DNA of 64,000 nucleotides from Jiangella alba (GTDB taxonomy: Bacteria > Actinomycetota > Actinomycetes > Jiangellales > Jiangellaceae): assembly GCF_900106035.1 (NCBI RefSeq), contig NZ_FNUC01000003.1, positions 1,550,001 through 1,614,000 on the forward strand, read 5' to 3'. This document shows positions 17,958 through 38,976 of this stretch, piece after piece. Below the pieces are notes generated by a model, which was not told the DNA's origin, did not search any database, and saw only the letters and a program-made list of their open reading frames with translations. The first letter of the stretch is position 1. Each line of letters starts with the position of its first letter. The translations under genes and the position numbers were made by a program.

Positions 17958-18390
17958 GCGCGCCGCCGCGGTCAGTGAACGGCCAGCGAACCGGGACCAA
18001 CAGCGGTGTCACCCGCCACGTCGGATGACGACGTCGGCGTCATGGTGGTGACGACGAAGCCGGTCTGCTCGTCGGCGACGTCGCTGTGCCGACGTGATCG
18101 TGATCCGGCCTGGAGAGGTGACATGGGCCTGGGACGTGAGGGCAGGCCAGGACCGTGGCGCCCGGGAAACCGGCGCACGCCCCGGAAACCGGCGCTTACG
18201 CCCCGGAAACGGGGTCTATCCGCCGGTCGCCGGGGCGTGCGACGGCTTCCCGGGCGTCAGCGATCGGTGGGCCGGCCAGCGGGCGGACGGGAGATCGCGA
18301 GGCACCCGACCGTCCCGGCACCGTGACGACGTCGCCGCCACCGCGCCGGCCCACGCCCCGCCTGGCCAGCGTGCTCTCAGTGGACCAGGA

Positions 18391-18798
18391 CCAACAGCGG
18401 AGCCGGTGGCCGTGCGCGAAGCGAACCCGTGAGCGGCCGACGGACCGCGGCCAACAGCGGAGCCGGTGGCCGTGCGCGAAGCGAACCCGTGAGCGGCCGA
18501 CGGACCGCGGCCAACAGCGGAGCCGGTGGCCGTGCGCGAAGCGAACCCGTGAGCGGCCGACGGACCGCGGCCAACAGCGGAGCCGGTGGCCGTGCGCGAA
18601 GCGAACCCGTGAGCGGCCGACGGACCGCGGCCAACAGCGGAGCCGGTGGCCGTGCGCGAAGCGAACCCGTGAGCGGCCGACGGACCGCGGCCAACAGCGG
18701 AGCCGGTGGCCGTGCGCGAAGCGAACCCGTGAGCGGCCGACGGACCGCGGCCAACAGCGGAGCCGGTGGCCGTGCGCGAAGCGAACCCGTGAGCGGCC
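18391..18798. repeat. Perfect 60-bp tandem repeat array (6.8 copies)
   Basis: Six complete identical 60-bp units followed by a 48-bp partial one. The unit starts CCAACAGCGGAGCCGGTGGC and ends GGCCGACGGACCGCGG. There are no sequence differences between copies, so expansion is recent or homogenisation is active. Sixty is a multiple of three, so frames stay open through the array on both strands, but the flanks do not support a protein. A degenerate form of the same unit is found at about 36831-36965. Confidence 0.97.
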
Positions 18799-18828
18799 AG
18801 CGAACCAGAAGACCAGCAGACCTAGAAG

Positions 18829-19041
18829 CCCGGGCCCATTGTTCGGCCGGCCCCCTGACGCTGCTTTCACGGGGGCGCGGGCGGCCGGGTCAAGCGGTCC
18901 TCCGACCGCGCGAAGCGCCAACAAAGAGGTCCGCTTGAGGCGGCCTCCCGCGCCCTCGACAATCGAGAGCAGCAGGGGGCAGGCCAGCGCGGCAGACCCA
19001 GCCAACGAGAGCCCGGCAAACCGAAACCGGCCAACCGAAAC
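18829..19041. repeat. Dispersed hairpin-bearing repeat, copy A
   Basis: About 210 bp strongly similar to 36994-37200. The core is a 30-bp inverted repeat (18873-18902 with 18926-18955, 26 of 30 positions pairing) around a 23-nt loop that contains GCGCGAAGCGC. Shared flanks include GGGCCCATTGTTCGGCCGGCC upstream (in copy B the T of ATTG is G) and ATCGAGAGCAGCAGGGGGC downstream. No transposase or target duplication was recognised. Confidence 0.85.
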
Positions 19042-19483: not shown

Positions 19484-20548
19484 GTGCCTGAGCCAGGTGG
19501 TCACCCCCGCCGTCCGCGCCGCGCGCTAGTCGTGCTGTGCACCACCGCGGTCAGCGTCGCTGGGGGCATGGCCTTCATCAACCAGAGCAACGCCGATCCG
19601 AAGCCGACGATCTCCGAGGTCAGGGAACAGGTCGACAGCCTGTACCACCAGGCGGAGCAGGCGACGGAGCGGTACAACGCCGCTACTGACGAGCTCACCG
19701 AGGTGAAGCGCCGCATCGAGCGGGCGCAGGCGTCGGTCGAGCGGCAACAGGCGGCGGTCGACGCCGTGCGGGCGCAGATCGGCGCGTATGCCGCGGCCAC
19801 GTACCGGTCCGGCGGCATCGTCGACCCCACGCTGCAGACGCTGCTGGCCGAGAGCCCCGAAGACTTCCTCGCGCAGTCGTCGGTCATGAACGCGTTCGCC
19901 GGTCAGCAGGCCGAGAGCCTGGCCAGCGCCGCCGACGTGAGCCGCAGCTACGAGACGGCCCGCCTCATGGCCGACGAAGAGCTGACCCGCCAGCAGGCCG
20001 TCGAGGCCACGCTGAAGTCGGAGCAGGCGACCGTCGAGGGGCTGCTGGCCGACGCGCAGGAGATTCTCGACCAGCTCGAGGCCGAAGAGCTCGAGCAGCT
20101 GGAAGAGGACCGCGAGGAGAACGCCGAGGTCCCCGACCGCGGCGAGGACGACGAGACCGACGAGGACGAAGACACCCCGACCGACCCGCCGCCGGTGTCC
20201 GGCCGCGCGGGCGTCGTGGTCGAGTTCGCGATGGCGCAGGTCGGCGAGCCCTACGCGTGGGGCGGCAACGGCCCGAACAGCTGGGACTGCTCCGGTCTGA
20301 CGTCCGCCGCCTGGGCCGAGGCCGGGGTGAGCCTGCCGCGCTCGTCCGGCTCCCAGATCAACGTCGGCACCCGCGTCTCGAAGAGCCAGCTCGAGCCCGG
20401 CGACCTCGTCTTCTACTACAGCCCCATCAGCCACGTCGGCATCTACATCGGCGGCGGCGAGATCGTGCACGCCACCCACCCGGGTGACGTCGTGAGCGTC
20501 GACGACGTCGACCTCATGCCGTTCGCGGGCGCCACTCGGCCGGGCTGA
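19484..20548 (+). CDS. Secreted NlpC/P60 peptidoglycan endopeptidase
   Basis: A 354-residue cell-wall hydrolase of the RipA type. A signal segment (residues about 14-37, ALVVLCTTAVSVAGGMAF) is followed by a long coiled coil (45-205), an Asp/Glu-rich linker with DRGEDDETDEDED and a C-terminal NlpC/P60 domain (about 240-354). Catalytic Cys269 lies in SWDCSGL and the His in SHVGIYIGGG. It should cleave D-Glu-meso-DAP bonds during cell division. The GTG start at 19484 follows AGGAAGG. A strong terminator follows. Confidence 0.94.
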   Translation: MPEPGGHPRRPRRALVVLCTTAVSVAGGMAFINQSNADPKPTISEVREQVDSLYHQAEQATERYNAATDELTEVKRRIERAQASVERQQAAVDAVRAQIGAYAAATYRSGGIVDPTLQTLLAESPEDFLAQSSVMNAFAGQQAESLASAADVSRSYETARLMADEELTRQQAVEATLKSEQATVEGLLADAQEILDQLEAEELEQLEEDREENAEVPDRGEDDETDEDEDTPTDPPPVSGRAGVVVEFAMAQVGEPYAWGGNGPNSWDCSGLTSAAWAEAGVSLPRSSGSQINVGTRVSKSQLEPGDLVFYYSPISHVGIYIGGGEIVHATHPGDVVSVDDVDLMPFAGATRPG

Positions 20549-23423: not shown

Positions 23424-23510
23424 GCCGTCTTCGCTTCGGGTCGCGCACCCGCCGGAAGTACGTTATAGGCCCGATTCGGGCGGTGCGATTTCCGCCGCCG
23501 AAACGGACAT

Positions 23511-23625
23511 CGCGGCCTCAGCCGCGCGGGTCGGTCACCGCGCCGAGGAAGACGATGGCGCCGGTCTGGGTGTCGGAGATGGTGAACGCGAACGGACGGT
23601 CGGCGCGGAAGCTCTGGCCGGCCGA
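23511..23625. repeat. 115-bp perfect direct repeat, copy 1 (serpin 3' ends)
   Basis: Identical to 24673-24787 over 115 bp, covering the last codons of each serpin gene, the stop and about seven bases beyond. The identity stops exactly where the codons of the reactive-centre loop begin. The period is 1162 bp, one serpin gene length. Confidence 0.95.
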
Positions 23626-24522
23626 CTCCAGCATCACCCCGCCGGTGACGGCGGCCGCCTCGGTGCCGGCCTCGTCGACCCGGAGGTACGTCTTCTGCAC
23701 GACCGGCCCGAGGAACGGGTTCTCCGGCGACATCGGGGTGAAGTCACCGCCGTCGAACGCGCTGTTCATGCCGAGCGCACGGAGCGGGTCGTTGAGGTCG
23801 GCCTTCCATTGCAGCTCGAACCGGGGCAGCGCGAGGTCGCCGATCTTCGCCGGCTGGAGCGCGGCGACGGCGTCGGCCCACTCCACGGCGTCCAGCGACC
23901 CGAGCAGCCGCGGCAGCGGCACGTCCTCGTCGGGGAGCAGGATCTCCATGGCGTAGCGTTCGTCCTCGCCGTAGGGCAGCCGGAGCATGCGGTAGCCGTC
24001 GCGCTGGACGACGGGGACGGAGACCTCGGTGCGGTGCATGAGCGGCACCGTCGCCGTGCTCCCGTCAGAGAGCCGGAAACCGCCGTCGCGGGTGTCGGCG
24101 GGGTCGAACTGCGTGGTCCAGGTACCGAGGAAGTAAACGGCGTTCAGCAGCACCAGGACGGCGTCGCCGCTGGGCAGTCCGAGGTCGGCGGCGATGCCGT
24201 CGATGCGGTCCTCGGTCTGTTCGCGTACCCAGGAGTCGATCTCGTCGGCCGTCTCCTGGGACCCGAGGTCGGCGTCGTCGACGGTGGCGCCGAAGGAGTC
24301 GCGGGCGAAGGCGAGGTAGTTCGCCTCGAACGGGTACCCGTCGCGCGCCCACAGCGCGTTGGCGACGGACAGTGTGACGTCGTCGGTGTCGGCCAGGTCG
24401 CGCAGCAGGGCGCCGACCCGGACGTCGCGGGAGTCGTCGAGGTGCAGGACGGCGGCCATCTCGTCCGCCGTCCGGCCGCCGGCCCCGGCCAGCACCATGG
24501 CCAGCAGCGCGGCCGCCGACAC
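23518..24522 (-). CDS. Serpin paralogue lacking N-terminus (tandem duplicate)
   Basis: Serpin-fold protease inhibitor of at least 334 residues. The family patterns NAVYFLGTWTTQFDPADT, the inhibitory hinge GTEAAAVTGGV and the C-terminal FRADRPFAFTISD are intact. The first normal start is GTG 24522, but similarity to the upstream serpin continues in frame back to about 24639 (LVTELDPADTGAVASSVNQF) with no ATG/GTG/TTG there, and the signal peptide is missing. Its last 115 bp are identical to the end of the upstream serpin gene, marking a tandem duplication. It may be translated by reinitiation, or be non-functional. The reactive loop (VMLESAGQS) differs from that of the first copy. Confidence 0.75.
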   Translation of the reverse strand: MSAAALLAMVLAGAGGRTADEMAAVLHLDDSRDVRVGALLRDLADTDDVTLSVANALWARDGYPFEANYLAFARDSFGATVDDADLGSQETADEIDSWVREQTEDRIDGIAADLGLPSGDAVLVLLNAVYFLGTWTTQFDPADTRDGGFRLSDGSTATVPLMHRTEVSVPVVQRDGYRMLRLPYGEDERYAMEILLPDEDVPLPRLLGSLDAVEWADAVAALQPAKIGDLALPRFELQWKADLNDPLRALGMNSAFDGGDFTPMSPENPFLGPVVQKTYLRVDEAGTEAAAVTGGVMLESAGQSFRADRPFAFTISDTQTGAIVFLGAVTDPRG

Positions 24523-24672
24523 CGGCGACGTGACGGTGTTCTGGGTGCCGTCGCCGACCTGGGCCAGCAGGTCGAAGCCGAACTGGTTGACCGACGACGC
24601 GACGGCGCCGGTGTCGGCCGGGTCGAGCTCGGTGACCAGTCGCAGCGACGCGGGTCGCCGGTGGGCTCGGGT

Positions 24673-24787
24673 CGCGGCCTCAGCCGCGCGGGTCGGTCAC
24701 CGCGCCGAGGAAGACGATGGCGCCGGTCTGGGTGTCGGAGATGGTGAACGCGAACGGACGGTCGGCGCGGAAGCTCTGGCCGGCCGA
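24673..24787. repeat. 115-bp perfect direct repeat, copy 2 (serpin 3' ends)
   Basis: Second copy of the identity block at 23511-23625. It covers the C-terminal FRADRPFAFTISD-coding end of the lipoprotein serpin and its stop codon. It is the likely crossover or conversion point that produced the serpin pair. Confidence 0.95.
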
Positions 24788-25960
24788 GCTGCGGGTGACG
24801 CCGCCGGTGACGGCCGCGGCCTCGGTGCCGGCTTCGTCGACCCGGATGTAGGTCTTGTGCACGACGGAGTCGAGCGTCTGCGGGTACGCCGACATCGGCC
24901 GGAAGTCGGCGTTCTGGAAGGCGGGGCCCATGCCGAGCGCCGTCAGCGCGTCGCCGAGGTCGGCGTCCCACTCGAGCTCGAACTTCGGCACCGCGACGGT
25001 CTGCAGCTCCTGCGGCGCCAGCGCGCCCACGGCGGCCGACCACTCGGCGGCGTCGAGGGACGAGAGCAGCTGCGGCAGGCCGGCGGGGTCGTCGGGGAGC
25101 AGGATCTCCATGCCGTAGCGGCCGTCGGCGCCGTAGGGCAGCCGAAGCACGGAGTAGCCGTCGCGCTGGGCGAACGGCAGCGTCTGCTCGCGCAGGAACA
25201 TCAGCGGCACGTCGGCCGTGCTGGCGTCGGGCAGCGTGAACGCCTGCGTCTGGGTGTCGGCGGGGTCGAACTGCGTGGTCCACGTGCCGAGGAAGTAGAC
25301 CGCGTTGACGAGCACCAGCGCCGCGTCGGGGTCGGGCAGCCCGAGGTCGGCGGCGATGCCGTCGATGCGGTCCTCGGTGGCGTCGCGCACCCAGGCATCG
25401 ATGTCGTCGGCGGTGGACTGCGACCCGAGGTCGGCTTCGTCGATGGTCGCGCCGAAGGAGTCGCGGACGAACGACAGGTAGTCGGCCTCGAACGGGACGC
25501 CCTGCTGCGTCCACAGCGCGTTGGCCGGCGCCAGCGTGACGTCGGTGGTGTCGGCCAGCTGGTCGAGCAGCGCACCGACCCGGACGTCGCGAGGGTCGTC
25601 GAGGTGCAGTGTCGCCGCCATGGCGGAGGCGGTGTCGCCGCCGGCCCCGGCCAGCACCATGGCCAGCAGCGACGCCACCGAGACGGGGGAGGTGACGGTG
25701 TTCTCGGTGCCGTCGCTCAGCTGCCCGAGCAGGTCGAAGCCGAACTGGTTGACCGACGCCGCGACGGTGCCGGCGTCGGCCGGCGCGAGGTCGGCGACGA
25801 CGTCGATGCGCGGCGCCGGCCCCGGGTCGGCGGTGCGGGTGCTCGTGGGTGCGGCGTCCGCCCCGCCGGAGCCGTCAGCCCCGTCGTCAGCCGCGGAACC
25901 GCAGCCGGCCAGCAGCAACGCGCTGGCGAGCGCCGCGCCGGCCACGCGGGGCAGGGACAT
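24680..25960 (-). CDS. Lipoprotein serpin (serine protease inhibitor)
   Basis: A 426-residue serpin with a lipoprotein signal (ALASALLLAGCGS, Cys20) and a Ser/Asp/Ala-rich spacer, so it is displayed on the outer face of the membrane. Serpin patterns NAVYFLGTWTTQFDPADT, YIRVDEAGTEAAAVTGGV (inhibitory hinge) and SFRADRPFAF are present. Serpins trap target proteases by cleavage of the reactive loop; here the loop reads VTRSSAGQS. ATG 25960 follows CGGAGGTG. It begins 21 bp after the stop of the cytochrome b paralogue, so the two are very probably cotranscribed. Serpins are uncommon in bacteria. Confidence 0.92.
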   Translation of the reverse strand: MSLPRVAGAALASALLLAGCGSAADDGADGSGGADAAPTSTRTADPGPAPRIDVVADLAPADAGTVAASVNQFGFDLLGQLSDGTENTVTSPVSVASLLAMVLAGAGGDTASAMAATLHLDDPRDVRVGALLDQLADTTDVTLAPANALWTQQGVPFEADYLSFVRDSFGATIDEADLGSQSTADDIDAWVRDATEDRIDGIAADLGLPDPDAALVLVNAVYFLGTWTTQFDPADTQTQAFTLPDASTADVPLMFLREQTLPFAQRDGYSVLRLPYGADGRYGMEILLPDDPAGLPQLLSSLDAAEWSAAVGALAPQELQTVAVPKFELEWDADLGDALTALGMGPAFQNADFRPMSAYPQTLDSVVHKTYIRVDEAGTEAAAVTGGVTRSSAGQSFRADRPFAFTISDTQTGAIVFLGAVTDPRG

Positions 25961-29428: not shown

Positions 29429-30102
29429 CCGGCATCGAGCTGCGGGTCGTCAGCTACAACGTCCGCGGGCTGCGCAACGACGGCGCCGCCGTCGCGCGGG
29501 TGCTGCGGGAGCTGGACCCGGATGTCGTCTTCATCCAGGAGCTGCCCCGGGTCGTGCTGTGGCGCGGCCGGGCGGCGTCGTTCGCCCGCCGGGCCGACCT
29601 GCTGTACGCGGCTGGCGGCGGCTCGACCGGCGGGACGGCGCTGTTCACCGCCGTGCGGGTGGACCTGCGCGAGGTGCAGGAACACCGGCTGCGGCGCACG
29701 CCCGGCCTGACCCGCCGCGGCGTGGTGCTGGCCCGCCTGGAGAAGGACGGCGTCGCGTTCGGGGCCGGCTCGCTGCACCTCGGCCTGGACGCCGGCGAGC
29801 GGGCCCGGCACCTGACCGACCTCACCGGCCTGGTCAACCGCCTAGACCTGCCGGCGACGGTGCTCGGCGGCGGCCTCAACGAGCCGCCCGAGGCGTCGAC
29901 GTGGACCCGGCTGGCCTCGCAGTACGCCGACGCGGGCGCCTCGGACCCGACGCCGACGTACTCGGTGGCGCGGCCGCGGCGGCGCGTCGACGGCATCTTC
30001 GTCCGCGGCGCCGAGGTGACCTCCTACCGCGTCGTCGACACCCCGGACGTGCGGGCGGCGAGCGATCACTTCCCGGTGGTGGCGGAGCTTCGGCTCGCCT
30101 GA
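29425..30102 (+). CDS. Endonuclease/exonuclease/phosphatase (EEP) family protein
   Basis: A 225-residue protein with the EEP fold markers SYNVRGLRND (metal-site Asn), DVVFIQEL (metal Glu), SLHLGLD, YADAG and the C-terminal ASDHFPVVAEL (catalytic His). The usual GDxN motif reads GGGLN here, so the conserved Asp is replaced by Gly and activity may be reduced or changed. GTG 29425 overlaps the glucokinase stop. The codons for VRAASDHFPVVAELRLA are copied, with decay, twice in the 560 bp downstream. Confidence 0.85.
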   Translation: MTGIELRVVSYNVRGLRNDGAAVARVLRELDPDVVFIQELPRVVLWRGRAASFARRADLLYAAGGGSTGGTALFTAVRVDLREVQEHRLRRTPGLTRRGVVLARLEKDGVAFGAGSLHLGLDAGERARHLTDLTGLVNRLDLPATVLGGGLNEPPEASTWTRLASQYADAGASDPTPTYSVARPRRRVDGIFVRGAEVTSYRVVDTPDVRAASDHFPVVAELRLA

Positions 30103-30640
30103 CGGTGGTGGCGGGTCCGCGGGGCCGGGTGGAGTCGGTTCGTGGGGGTTGACCTGGGTGCCAACTGTTGGCCGTGGTGTCAACATGCGAGCACGGTTGT
30201 CGGGCTGGGCCGGGCCGAGGTGGCCTTCTCACGCGATGTCGGCACCCGGGATGTGCGGGCAGCGAGCGACCATTTCGCGGTGGTGGCGGTTCCGCGGGGC
30301 CGGGTGGAGTCGGTTCGTGGGGGTTGACCTGGGTGCCAACTGTTGGCCGTGGTGTCAACACGCGAACGCGGTTGTCGGGTTGGGTCGGGCCGAGGTGGCC
30401 TTCTCACGCGTTGTCGGCACCCGGGATGTGCGGGCGGCGAGCGACCGCTTTCCGGTGGTGGCGGAGCTTCGGCTCGCCTGACGGGGGTGGCGGTTCCGCG
30501 GGGCCGGGTGGAGTCGGTTCGTGGGTGTTGACCTGGGTGCCAACCGTTGGCGGTGGTGTCAACACGCGAACACGGTTGTCAGGCTGGGCGGTCGTGGCGG
30601 AGTTTCGGCTCGCCTGACGGGTGGCGGTTCCGCGGGGCCG
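30103..30640. repeat. Decayed tandem copies of the EEP gene 3' end with nested hairpins
   Basis: A unit of about 175-180 bp repeats from the EEP gene tail (GCGGGCGGCGAGCGA... GCTTCGGCTCGCCTGAC) through GGGGCCGGGTGGAGTCGGTTCG and a GTTGAC...GTCAAC stem-loop. Three stem-loops occur at 30148-30184, 30323-30359 and 30527-30563. Each has an outer GTTGAC/GTCAAC stem and an inner GCCAA(C)/(G)TTGGC stem. Frames inside are remnants, not genes. Confidence 0.85.
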
Positions 30641-36203: not shown

Positions 36204-36806
36204 ATGCGATCGCTCGTCTACTACGTCGCCTCGACCATCGACGGCTTCATCGCCGGCCCCGGCTCCGAGGTCGACTTCTTCTCCGCCGACGGCGACCACG
36301 TGGCCGCCATCGGCGAGGAGTACCCGGAGACCATCCCGGTGCACTTTCGCTCCGTGCTCGGCATCGACCCGCCGAACCGCACCATCGACACCGTCCTCGA
36401 AGGCCGCGGCTCCTACCAGTTCGGCCTCGACGACGGTGTCGCGAACGCCTACCCGCACCTGCGCCACCTGGTGTTCTCCCGAACCCTCGGGACCGCCCCC
36501 GACCCAGCCGTCGAGGTGGTCGCGACCGACCCGGTGGCGCGGGTGCGCGCCCTGAAACGTGAGCCCGGCGGGCGCATCTGGCTCTGCGGCGGCGGTGAGA
36601 TCGCCGGCGTGCTGCGCGACGAGATCGACGAGCTGGCGATCAAGATCTACCCGGTCGCGATCGGCTCCGGCCGCCCCCTCTTCGGCGCGGCCGGCTTCGC
36701 GCCGCACCAGTTCCGGGTCGCCTCCAGCCGCACCTTCGACGACGGTGTCGTCTTCGTCCACTACGCCCGCCAGCCCGCCCATGATCATCCAGGATTTGGG
36801 GCGTGA
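36204..36806 (+). CDS. Dihydrofolate reductase-like (RibD C-terminal) family protein
   Basis: A 200-residue protein of the RibD_C/YyaP-YwjB type. It opens MRSLVYYVASTIDGFIAGP and contains the NADPH-binding-like GGRIWLCGGGEIAGVL and the final IGSGRPLFG. ATG 36204 follows AGGAGG. It is controlled, by layout, by the divergent TetR regulator. NAD(P)H-dependent reductase activity is inferred from the fold; the substrate is unknown. Its last codons overlap a 48-bp palindrome that may act as terminator. Confidence 0.88.
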   Translation: MRSLVYYVASTIDGFIAGPGSEVDFFSADGDHVAAIGEEYPETIPVHFRSVLGIDPPNRTIDTVLEGRGSYQFGLDDGVANAYPHLRHLVFSRTLGTAPDPAVEVVATDPVARVRALKREPGGRIWLCGGGEIAGVLRDEIDELAIKIYPVAIGSGRPLFGAAGFAPHQFRVASSRTFDDGVVFVHYARQPAHDHPGFGA

Positions 36807-36830
36807 TCACACCCCGAAACCTGGACGATC
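36783..36830. terminator. 48-bp palindrome at the end of the reductase gene
   Basis: GATCaTCCAGG ... CCTGGAcGATC form outer arms. Inside, GGGG pairs with CCCC around a self-complementary GTGATCAC. The element spans the last eight codons and the 24 bp after the stop. It could be a terminator or a protein binding site; no T-run follows. Confidence 0.6.
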
Positions 36831-37215
36831 TTGGAGCGGCAGCGGCCAGCGAACACCAAGCCGAGCGGAGCCGGTAGCCACACCCGAAGTGGCCAGTGAG
36901 CGGCCAGCGAACGGCGACCCACAGCGGAGTCGGTCGCCGGAACCCCACCCAGCAAGGGCGAGCGGCCAGCGGACCAGGAGCACAGCGGGCAGGGGAGCCG
37001 GGCCCATGGTTCGGCCGGCCCCTTGACGCTGCTTGAACCGGGGGCGCGGGCGGCCGGGTCAAGCGGTCCTCCGCCGCGCGAAGCGCCAAGCAAGAGGTCC
37101 GCTTGAGGCGGCCTCCTGCGCCCCCGACCATCGAGAGCAGCAGGGGGCTGGCCCACGCGGCAGACCCAGCCAACGCGAGCCCGGCGAACCCGAGCCCGGC
37201 GACCCCGGCCAACCG
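36831..37215. repeat. Dispersed hairpin-bearing repeat, copy B, with degenerate 60-bp units
   Basis: A non-coding stretch. The first 135 bp hold two to three degenerate units related to the 18391-18798 array (GGCCAGCGAAC, AGCGGAG(C/T)CGGT and GAGCGGCCAGCG recur). From 36994 to 37200 the sequence closely matches 18829-19041. The 30-bp inverted repeat lies at 37042-37071 / 37094-37123, and one base change against copy A turns a G-C pair into a G-U pair, keeping the stem. Confidence 0.85.
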
Positions 37216-38976
37216 CTACGGCTGAGGAACAGGCGGCGGCTGCCACGCCCTCGGCGTCGTCCGGGTGGCGGGGAAGAGGAGGTCGACGAAGCGGGCGGCG
37301 GTGGGTTGGGGCTCGTGGTTGGCGAGGCCGGGCCGCTCGTTCGCCTCGATCAGCACGTACTCCTCGCCCTCCGGGCTGGGCACGATCATGTCCAGCCCGG
37401 TCACCGGGATGTCGATCGCCTCGCTGGCCGCCACCGCGGCCGCCGCGAGCGTCGGGTGCAGCGACGCCGTCACGTCGTGGATCGTCCCGCCGGTGTGCAG
37501 GTTGGCCGTGCGCCGGACCCGCAGCGCCACGCCCTCGGGCAGCACGTCGCCCAGTCCGTACCCGGCGGCGCGCAGGGTCTCCACCGTCGTGTCGTCCACC
37601 GGCACCCGGGACTCGCCGCCGGTCGCGGCGGAGCGGCGCCGGCTGTGTGCGTCGATCAGGTCGGCGACGGTCTGCCGGCCGGTGCCGTACACCGTCGCGG
37701 GGCGGCGGACGGCGGCGGCGACGACCTCGTGGCCGATGACGACGATGCGCAGGTCCTCGCCGTCGACGCACTCCTCGATGAGGACGTCGGGGCAGAACGT
37801 CTGGGCCAGCGACACCGCCGAGGCGAGCGCGGCCGGGGACGTCACCCCGACGGTGATGCCGCGGCCCTGCTCGCCGCGGACCGGCTTGACCACCGCCTCG
37901 CCGACCTCGGCGAGGAACGCGGCGTCGGCCTCGGCGGAGGAGGCGCTGACGCCGCGCGGCACCGACAGCCCGGCCCGTTGGAAGATCCGCCGGGTCAGCT
38001 GCTTGTCGTCGCAGCGGCTCATCGCGACCGCCGTCGTCAGCTCGGACAGCGACTCGCGGGTGACGATGCGCCGCCCGCCGTGCGACAGCCGCAGCTCGCC
38101 GCTCTCGGCGTCGGTGATCTCGACCAGGATGCCGCGCCGCCGCGCCTCGTCGGCGATGATCTTCGCGTACGGGTTCAGCTCCGTCTCCGCGGGCCCGGCC
38201 ACGTACAGCGGCTCGTTGATCGGGTTCTTCCGCTTCACCGCGAACACCGGCACCCGCTGGAACCCGAGCCTGGTGTACAGCCTGATCGCCGGGTCGTTGT
38301 CGTGCAGGACGGAGAGGTCGAGGTGGTCGCGGCCGCGGCCGATGTACCGCTCGGCCAGCACCCGCACCAGCGCCTCCCCGACGCCGGGGATGGTGCTCTG
38401 CGGGTCGACGGCGAGGCTCCACAGGCTGGCGCCGTTGTCGGGGTCGTCGAACGCGCGGACGTGGTCGACGCCGGTGACGGTGCCGACGACGGCGCCGGTG
38501 CGCTCGTCCTGCGCCACCAGGTAGGTGAACGTCGGCGTGCGCTGGTTGCCCCACATGAGCGCGGTGTCGCCGGTGACCATGCCGCGGCCCGCGTACAGCC
38601 GGTTGATCTCCTCGGCGTCGGCCAGTTCGCTCATCTTGCGGACGAACACGCCGGAGACGGGGTTGCGCCGCGGCCGGTAGCGGTGCAGCTCCAGCCGGTA
38701 CGTCAGCGACGGGTCGATGAACAGCTCACCGGGCGCGTGTGACACCAGCACGTGCGGGTCGGCGACGTACATGGCGATGTCGCGGCGGCCCTCCTCCTCG
38801 GCCCGGAGCAGGTCGATGACGTGCCGCGGGTCGTCGAAGGTCTGCGCGAACACCAGCCGGCCCCACGCGAGGTCGACCAGGACGTCGCGCTTCATGTCCC
38901 GGACGAGGTGTTCCGGCGCCTCTTTCCACGGCGTGCTCCACAGCGAATGCTGGCCCCTTCGCCGGGGATCGGTCAC
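37216..38976 (-). CDS. ngg: N-acetylglutaminylglutamine synthetase (GNAT plus ATP-grasp)
   Basis: A 586-residue two-domain enzyme of the NAGGN osmolyte pathway. A GNAT acetyltransferase domain occupies about residues 95-250 (VVGTVTGVDH, SLAVDPQSTIPGVGEALVRVLAERY), and an ATP-grasp ligase about 280-575 (VVKPVRGEQGRGITVGV, YVLIEANERPGLANHEP). It acetylates glutamine and joins it to a second glutamine. GTG 38976 overlaps the stop of the amidotransferase (GTGA), so the two are coupled. The C-terminus is proline-rich and runs up to repeat copy B. Confidence 0.9.
   Translation of the reverse strand: MTDPRRRGQHSLWSTPWKEAPEHLVRDMKRDVLVDLAWGRLVFAQTFDDPRHVIDLLRAEEEGRRDIAMYVADPHVLVSHAPGELFIDPSLTYRLELHRYRPRRNPVSGVFVRKMSELADAEEINRLYAGRGMVTGDTALMWGNQRTPTFTYLVAQDERTGAVVGTVTGVDHVRAFDDPDNGASLWSLAVDPQSTIPGVGEALVRVLAERYIGRGRDHLDLSVLHDNDPAIRLYTRLGFQRVPVFAVKRKNPINEPLYVAGPAETELNPYAKIIADEARRRGILVEITDAESGELRLSHGGRRIVTRESLSELTTAVAMSRCDDKQLTRRIFQRAGLSVPRGVSASSAEADAAFLAEVGEAVVKPVRGEQGRGITVGVTSPAALASAVSLAQTFCPDVLIEECVDGEDLRIVVIGHEVVAAAVRRPATVYGTGRQTVADLIDAHSRRRSAATGGESRVPVDDTTVETLRAAGYGLGDVLPEGVALRVRRTANLHTGGTIHDVTASLHPTLAAAAVAASEAIDIPVTGLDMIVPSPEGEEYVLIEANERPGLANHEPQPTAARFVDLLFPATRTTPRAWQPPPVPQP

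Follow-up and report, generated by a model that had tools for sequence, protein, structure and literature searches.

Gene conversion among REPs, the closest described counterparts of the elements reported here, was reportedly proposed in a 1988 review. Integron attC sites are imperfect palindromes that act as a folded single strand and keep their structure more than their sequence. REPs, as one survey portrays them, are dispersed extragenic palindromes that often occur as inverted pairs and lie a short distance past stop codons, for the most part between convergent or tandem genes; where that survey names Mycobacterium tuberculosis, it does so for untagged repeats only (PMC3733652). RepRanger, as its description gives it, works with a default palindrome ceiling of 32 nt, and because of this ceiling it would report the family described below at best in pieces (PMC12306157).

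Here we follow up an earlier note on a 64,000-nucleotide stretch of the Jiangella alba genome (the whole stretch is hereafter the window), in which a dispersed structured repeat had been noticed. We give a probability of roughly 45% to the reading that the repeat belongs to a REP-like, strand-specific family of large extragenic foldback elements which has no RAYT and is homogenised by exchange between copies, the exchange being a mechanism that we infer.

Two Near Copies in the Window

The earlier note had described segments 18829-19041 and 36994-37200 as near copies, and both are present in the sequence as claimed: 36998-37200 aligns with positions 2-203 of the 213-nt query 18829-19041 at 91% identity, and the two copies constitute the window repeat family D10. 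The inverted repeat with its apical GCGCGAAGCGC is likewise there (18908-18918 in copy 1 and 37076-37086 in copy 2, both on the + strand), and the C-to-T difference between the right arms (CCTCCCGCG to CCTCCTGCG) does keep its partner as a G-U pair. Folded as RNA, the 213-nt segment reached a z of -6.3 on the + strand and -3.9 on the - strand, and none of 200 shuffles was as stable on either strand. The stem proved longer than the 30 bp noted earlier; according to the covariance model R1, the whole hairpins, both complete and of subfamily A, extend over 18844-18984 (+ strand; C3:1568844-1568984, 121.5 bits) and 37012-37152 (+ strand; C3:1587012-1587152, 116.3 bits). The apical mini-hairpins of both copies were read from the sequence, and that of copy 1 is GCGC-GAA-GCGC, with a C(GNA)G triloop of the kind tallied below. 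It is framed on the + strand by a 5' core, GGG-TCAAG (18887-18894), and a 3' core, CTTGA-GGC (18934-18941). The own genome contributes 27 rows to A1, collected through DNA similarity without recourse to a motif; all of them have GGGTCAAG (27/27) and AGGC, the GGC of the 3' core never varies and its CTTGA hardly does.

Upstream, copy 1 is abutted by a tandem array of about seven 60-nt units (18322-18866, + strand; repeat family D1) with seven register positions, five of them at 97% or more, and these units are related to the upstream flank of 25 subfamily A copies. Tandem amplification similar to D1 was also observed at some other copies, e.g., L214, and at L017 from shifted self-like matches. 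The gene downstream of copy 1 (19484-20548, + strand) has orthologs in 12/12 genomes and served as the basis for the cross-species comparison of this site. Copy 2 is flanked by two genes predicted from codon usage, an upstream convergent gene (36204-36806, + strand) and a gene on the - strand (37216-38895) to which copy 2 is antisense; the stop codon of this second gene is about 60 nt past the copy, and orthologs of the gene are present in 12/12 Jiangella genomes. A second palindrome, with ATCATCCAGG-type arms, lies at about 36783-36833, close to the stop codon that ends the convergent gene; long palindromes like it recur in other Jiangella convergent gaps, and they may be bidirectional terminators. 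Elsewhere in the window, a 201-nt repeat occurs in three copies at 30010-30589 (64-91% identity; D2), and two direct repeats, 23510-24389 and 24672-25551, have a constant spacing of 1162 nt and are 82% identical in two stretches of 300 nt (D3, D4); they may be duplicated genes lying side by side.

A Family of Covarying Foldbacks

Used as a DNA query, 18829-19041 gave 59 matches in its own genome at E ≤ 0.001, 25 of which are long forward copies, and weaker matches led to a subfamily B, from which 14 further copies were used as full. In the genome of 7.68 Mb, model R1, built on 14 + 14 hairpins, detected 39 full-length copies, each about 140 nt long, together with a shortened copy and a diverged one; its other matches in the genome are weaker readings of these hairpins on the opposite strand. 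The 39 copies are scattered along four contigs rather than placed terminally as in telomeres of the Streptomyces type, and the similarity among copies reaches into the flanks on both sides.

Read on the + strand from the outside in, the element has a C-rich/G-rich helix at its base, then a short bulge and a long stem (17 pairs, variable), followed by an internal loop GGG/GGC, invariant in Jiangella, and by the TCAAG/CTTGA helix, whose extension is variable; the apex bears one mini-hairpin in Jiangella and mostly two to three in other genera (26 distinct non-Jiangella elements carry two GNA mini-hairpins in 14 cases, three in 10 and one in 2). Pairing is maintained through changes on both sides of the stem. 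In A2, comprising 28 rows from the own genome, 95.7% of the cells pair and both-sided changes occur in 17/41 pairs, a result equalled by 0/500 shuffles, and sliding the partner by 1-3 columns lowers pairing to 38-50%. Across genera (A3, 27 rows), 90.8% of the cells are paired, the score is 0.536 vs 0.130 (0/500 shuffles), and all 12 outer-stem pairs show both-sided changes; the invariance of GGGTCAAG, CGCGAAGCG and CTTGAGGC in A3 is partly selection, since some of its rows were picked by a core pattern that demands them. A class scan in which the core was not required yielded 15 readable loci, three with the exact GGGTCAAG ... CTTGAGGC and 12 with the TCAAG/CTTGA helix or a close variant and other loop letters, i.e., the invariance of the GGG/GGC loop does not extend to the wider family.

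The description of a dispersed, structured repeat outside genes has held up, given 39 copies, strong covariation and no copy inside a gene call, and the proposed check with a covariance model was carried out with the outcome that pairing is kept by both-sided changes (0/500 shuffles in A2) and that the family occurs in other Actinomycetes. The loss of pairing in further copies, which had been thought to speak against such a repeat, was encountered as well, mainly in the form of internally deleted remnants at some sites.

Distribution Among Genomes, Plasmids and Phages

At E ≤ 1e-5, R1 found the family in 10/12 Jiangella genomes and in 0/10 other genomes of the order, one of which gave a single match at E 4.9e-4 (L071). 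The two Jiangella genomes lacking the family are the most diverged at both compared genes (84% at gene 37216-38895, 76% and 79% at gene 19484-20548). Since these 2/12 genomes are without it, spread or wholesale loss of the family must happen somehow. The exact core pattern was present in at least 120 stretches, which belong to at least six Jiangella species, Nocardioides lijunqiniae, Amycolatopsis sp. GM8, A. bartoniae and A. iheyensis and, among the matches listed, also to Labedaea rhizosphaerae and a Pseudonocardiaceae bacterium. With a second model, R2, and 11 candidates scored per genome, the family was detected at E ≤ 1e-5 in at least 27/393 genomes of the class and at least 12/123 genera; one locus was taken from each of 17 non-Jiangella R2 genomes, and apart from two cut by contig ends all (15) showed the same layout. 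At 1e-6, a phylum sample gave matches in 2/396 genomes, namely the own genome and one of another class with an intact core. Beyond Jiangella, the family is sparse in Actinomycetes. Similar copies occur on seven Streptomyces plasmids, two Nocardia plasmids and one Mycobacterium plasmid; the window copy matched no plasmid, a Streptomyces-like copy matched no phage, and the exact core pattern was found in none of the viral contigs searched. A copy from genome G137 matches a Streptomyces plasmid at 87%, which suggests that G137 is a Streptomyces.

Jiangella Copies Near Stop Codons

The neighbours of the copies were called with a home-made codon-usage gene finder trained on Jiangella-rich loci, which may err in other genera. 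None of the copies examined lies inside a gene call (0/35 in the own genome, 0/169 in the Jiangella set, which includes a few Nocardioides and Amycolatopsis, and 0/11 elsewhere). Both neighbours were called for 142 Jiangella copies, with 69 copies in convergent gaps, 18 in divergent gaps and the rest in tandem ones (30 in one arrangement, 25 in the other). In most of them the + strand runs antisense to the gene that ends next to the element: the 3'-side gene is antisense in 94/142, at a median distance of 44.5 nt from its stop codon and within 60 nt in 55/94, vs a median of 183.5 nt and two copies within 60 nt for the 48/142 with a sense 3'-side gene. The own genome is similar (15/35 convergent; 24/35 with an antisense 3'-side gene, median 50 nt). 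Among Jiangella gaps of at least 60 bp, the convergent ones make up 34/85 with an element vs 15/223 without (Fisher p 2e-11). Several Jiangella loci hold an inverted pair in which each copy adjoins one stop codon, and in several gaps such pairs flank a central long palindrome. Outside Jiangella, convergent placement is mixed. In one other-genus sample of 15 fetched copies, 12 had both neighbours called and 9/12 were convergent (4/5 in G137, 3/3 in G139, 2/2 in G228 and 0/2 elsewhere); in further samples convergent gaps held 1/7 other-genus copies, 2/6 further class-scan loci and 1/5 plasmid loci, where H1 is convergent, H2, H8 and H9 lie between divergent genes, and H5 overlaps a degraded IS.

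The position of the copies fits an RNA element of gene ends. Transcription that reads through from the convergent neighbour would then yield + strand RNA, whose hairpin would stop or trim the transcript before it ran antisense into the next gene, and paired copies in one gap would protect both genes. The excess of convergent gaps, the antisense 3'-side genes with their nearby stop codons, the inverted pairs and the 9/12 convergent copies of one other-genus sample are what such a structured RNA would lead one to expect, and it would have company, as convergent transcripts that overlap are described from Streptomyces as 'cutoRNAs' (PMC3765725) and, in the S. clavuligerus data reported, U-tract-free structured 3' ends are common (353/535 structured ends; PMC8269248). 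We nevertheless consider this explanation somewhat unlikely, because in 43/142 Jiangella copies the 5'-side gene points away and neither neighbour transcribes the + strand, because convergent placement is not general (the 1/7, 2/6 and 1/5 above), because the strand that is sense for the adjacent gene yields a less well paired hairpin, and because it is absent or lost at 10 resolved sites of the sister species G014 (see below); the bearing of loops and wobble pairs is discussed with the folding strand.

The convergent location in Jiangella and the conserved core would also suit a site in duplex DNA, or a cruciform, for a nucleoid or topology protein that acts between converging polymerases. Gyrase, for example, is reported for the BIMEs of E. 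coli. Such a site need not keep its pairing amid stem changes or show the one-stranded preference for G-T over A-C that the stems have, and we regard it as improbable.

The + Strand Is Kept Foldable

In the 12 stem pairs next to the loop, 206 Jiangella rows (210 minus four Nocardioides/Amycolatopsis loci) contain 2119 Watson-Crick pairs, 197 G-T/T-G, 15 A-C/C-A and 141 other combinations, and 119 distinct Jiangella stems still give 125 G-T/T-G vs 10 A-C/C-A. Strand-symmetric mutation alone predicts equal numbers; hence, the + strand is the strand that is kept foldable. By DNA energies, the + strand folds better in 153/210 Jiangella rows (the four Nocardioides/Amycolatopsis rows included) and in 23/29 other rows (near-duplicates included; p 6.6e-5), and RNA energies favour it in 144/210 and 15/29 (p 0.15), respectively. 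The tandem wobble 5'UG3'/3'GU5' was counted 44 vs 1.

The apical loops bear on the nature of the folding molecule. On the + strand of the 26 distinct non-Jiangella elements, C(GNA)G accounts for 60/67 triloop hairpins, and each of the four bases occurs at N (GAA 41, GCA 13, GTA 4, GGA 2). Half of these elements, 13, were retrieved with a pattern requiring one CGCGAAGCG; among the 13 that model R2 alone detected, its training rows having carried that hairpin, 30/32 triloops are C(GNA)G. GNA loops are described as the rule for extraordinarily stable DNA mini-hairpins in work that uses CGCGAAGCG itself and gives GCGAAGC a melting point of 78°C (PMC4686876). GNRA and UNCG tetraloops are scarce: 128 Jiangella tetraloop hairpins (rows including a few Nocardioides/Amycolatopsis) comprise two of the former and five of the latter, and neither type is among the tetraloops listed for the 26 non-Jiangella elements. 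The C(GNA)G triloops make us lean towards single-stranded DNA rather than RNA. Neither the GNA triloops nor the G-T pairs amount to proof of DNA, as G-U is a standard RNA pair, RNA energies favour the + strand in Jiangella as well, and the wobble tandem suits RNA too. For the structured RNA, the 197:15 excess of G-U over A-C is accordingly a point in favour, to be weighed against the rarity of GNRA and UNCG loops and against the non-Jiangella rows, in which DNA energies show a strand preference and RNA energies no clear one.

The paired changes could in principle have arisen by mutation, without selection, if template switching in a long quasi-palindrome copied one arm onto the other. Template-switch correction is known for quasi-palindromes, and the arms are long and GC-rich. 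Such copying would erase persisting mismatches, whereas the GGG/GGC mismatch loop is present in 27/27 own-genome A1 rows, and it would yield no bias of G-T over A-C; we consider it very improbable.

Transposon, Rfam and REP Membership

The Y1_Tnp domain (PF01797) of RAYT and IS200/IS605 transposases was found in 0/1 own genome and 0/12 Jiangella genomes, with controls matching in 5/14 genomes; no RAYT as sought for a REP or REPIN was found in the genome or in the 12 of its genus, and the genome gave no Y1 transposase that would make the repeat an IS200/IS605 end. The hairpin of about 140 nt is no palindrome of 20-40 bp with a GTAG or CGTC tag either; B copies have CGTC just 5' of the stem, inside a C-rich run, and this was not counted as a REP tag. 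In extragenic location, placement at gene 3' ends and in convergent gaps, and inverted pairing, the Jiangella copies do agree with REPs and REPINs, and copies in other genera give a mixed picture. Rfam at gathering score returned no match in the window, and at E ≤ 1 three matches in 10 other-genus loci, none of them at the element.

The earlier note had allowed for the segment being the end of a known transposon. We reject this, as no transposon was found to end in the segment and the 12 Jiangella genomes contain no Y1_Tnp. Judged by first residues, no transposase-like cluster is present among 16 of the larger clusters of the 151 non-Jiangella proteins near copies or 22 of the larger clusters of the 812 proteins of the Jiangella set. 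In locus L323 (1453-2880) of a Streptomyces plasmid, an ORF annotated as an IS110 transposase extends across one copy of the element; its domain is truncated and the element match lies behind the domain, so we read this as an ORF running into the element and dismiss a link with IS110.

A MITE of a now-absent DDE or HUH transposon would explain why the family is dispersed, has no gene call inside its copies and is present in some species and absent from others, with shared sites due to descent and the rest to decay. Target duplications are not evident at the sites compared, where empty sites are not clean, Y1_Tnp is absent from 12/12 genomes, no transposase-like neighbour recurs among these larger protein clusters, and descent alone predicts that orthologs are closer than paralogs, which is not seen (see below). 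A MITE origin therefore appears quite unlikely. What survives of the suggested 'mobile non-autonomous element' is a REP-like spread in a weak sense, visible as presence or absence between species and exchange among copies; a target duplication at the compared sites and a parent transposase, which the stronger sense would entail, were not found.

Shared Sites and Scrambled Hairpins

The site of copy 1 is occupied, across 12 genomes, by a subfamily A copy, another type, an inverted copy, an internally deleted copy or none, and the site of copy 2 has an A copy in the own genome and G009, B copies (one internally deleted) in G013 and none seen in nine. The closest relative of the own genome, by orthologs of genes 37216-38895 and 19484-20548, is G014. 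Flanking DNA assigns 18 same-orientation shared sites to the 39 own elements and the 29 of G014, the remaining 15/33 listed pairs being short repeat matches or opposite-orientation partners; we estimate that chance would give well under one shared site if the sites were drawn from several thousand gene ends. In 0/17 tested pairs was the ortholog the nearest relative (the 18th, L013/L272, is split by the subfamily rule and was left out). Ortholog identity of the hairpins is 0.908 vs 0.892 for cross non-orthologs in subfamily A (n 11, permutation p 0.14) and 0.818 vs 0.787 in subfamily B (n 6, permutation p 0.08), values at which a weak ortholog signal may remain. The nearest relative resides in the same genome for 28/39 own elements and 20/29 elements of G014. 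The copies keep their genomic places while the hairpin sequence is scrambled among them.

Some copies have been lost through deletion of the inner palindrome. The 21 own elements without a G014 partner were queried, and for 11 of them, at 10 sites, both flanks could be resolved; G014 has a remnant or an altered copy between persisting flanks at five of the 10 sites (L004, L006, L016, L019 and L040), and at the other five the element is missing. In G137, five dispersed copies (L308-L312) have exactly the same hairpin sequence, but 60-160 nt upstream their identity is 0.74-0.90. Both this pattern and the scrambled orthologs of the own genome and G014 are explained by homogenisation centred on the hairpin. 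Repeated re-insertion at the same places is an alternative and would look alike.

Discussion

For the REP-like family of foldbacks that we favour, we propose the following course of events. When the + strand becomes single-stranded, on the lagging strand or during repair, the hairpin would form and be bound or cut; a break would then be repaired from a copy elsewhere, whose hairpin would thereby be copied into the site by ectopic gene conversion. Such repair would keep all copies within one structure and would occasionally leave only a remnant, and the family would need no transposase of its own. For gene conversion between 140-bp repeats that are about 90% alike, the expected outcome is seen; the process itself we infer. 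The position next to stop codons may reflect, as for REPs, where an insert does least harm, although copies keep closer to the stop codon (median 44.5 nt, 55/94 within 60 nt) than would perhaps follow from tolerance alone.

The family may further represent an undescribed actinobacterial class of elements that work as folded single-stranded DNA, whose core and ultra-stable GNA mini-hairpins are cut or bound when exposed and in which repair from other copies homogenises the family at fixed sites without a transposase; this wider claim is possible but doubtful. If it is true, a dispersed repeat can hold its structure and sites while its sequence circulates among the copies, and hairpin-provoked gene conversion becomes directly testable in a bacterium. 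Moreover, Actinomycetes would gain a large structure-conserved non-coding family that Rfam does not match in the window and the loci searched, and a natural test of GNA mini-hairpins acting as DNA in cells.

We found no description of the family in the open PubMed Central literature. With attC sites, it has in common the imperfect palindrome and a structure kept more than the sequence, the core being a different one. Like the Tap-bound palindromes of Streptomyces telomeres, as these are presented, it would form single-strand foldbacks with small GCA triloop hairpins and sheared G:A closing (PMC4513846), but it is internal, dispersed and intergenic. The I-shaped (U-less) intrinsic terminators reported from GC-rich bacteria resemble it in placing a strong hairpin just behind stop codons (PMC8269248), whereas the Jiangella family prefers the strand antisense to the adjacent gene and has a core conserved across genera. 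Its closest likeness is to REPs, BIMEs and REPINs, with which it shares location, inverted pairing and extragenic habit, as the survey describes them (PMC3733652), and, as REPINs are portrayed, a population-like behaviour (PMC8049555). It differs from REPs in its length (about 140 nt instead of 20-40), in its apex of one to three mini-hairpins and in its conserved TCAAG/CTTGA core. GTAG REPs go with RAYT genes, none of which was found for the Jiangella family, and CGTC REPs are likewise without a dedicated transposase in that account (PMC3733652). The family also occurs in Actinomycetes, which are omitted from the phyla that the survey gives for tagged REPs (PMC3733652). Taken together, the family is REP-like in habit and, as far as our literature search showed, new in anatomy and host range.
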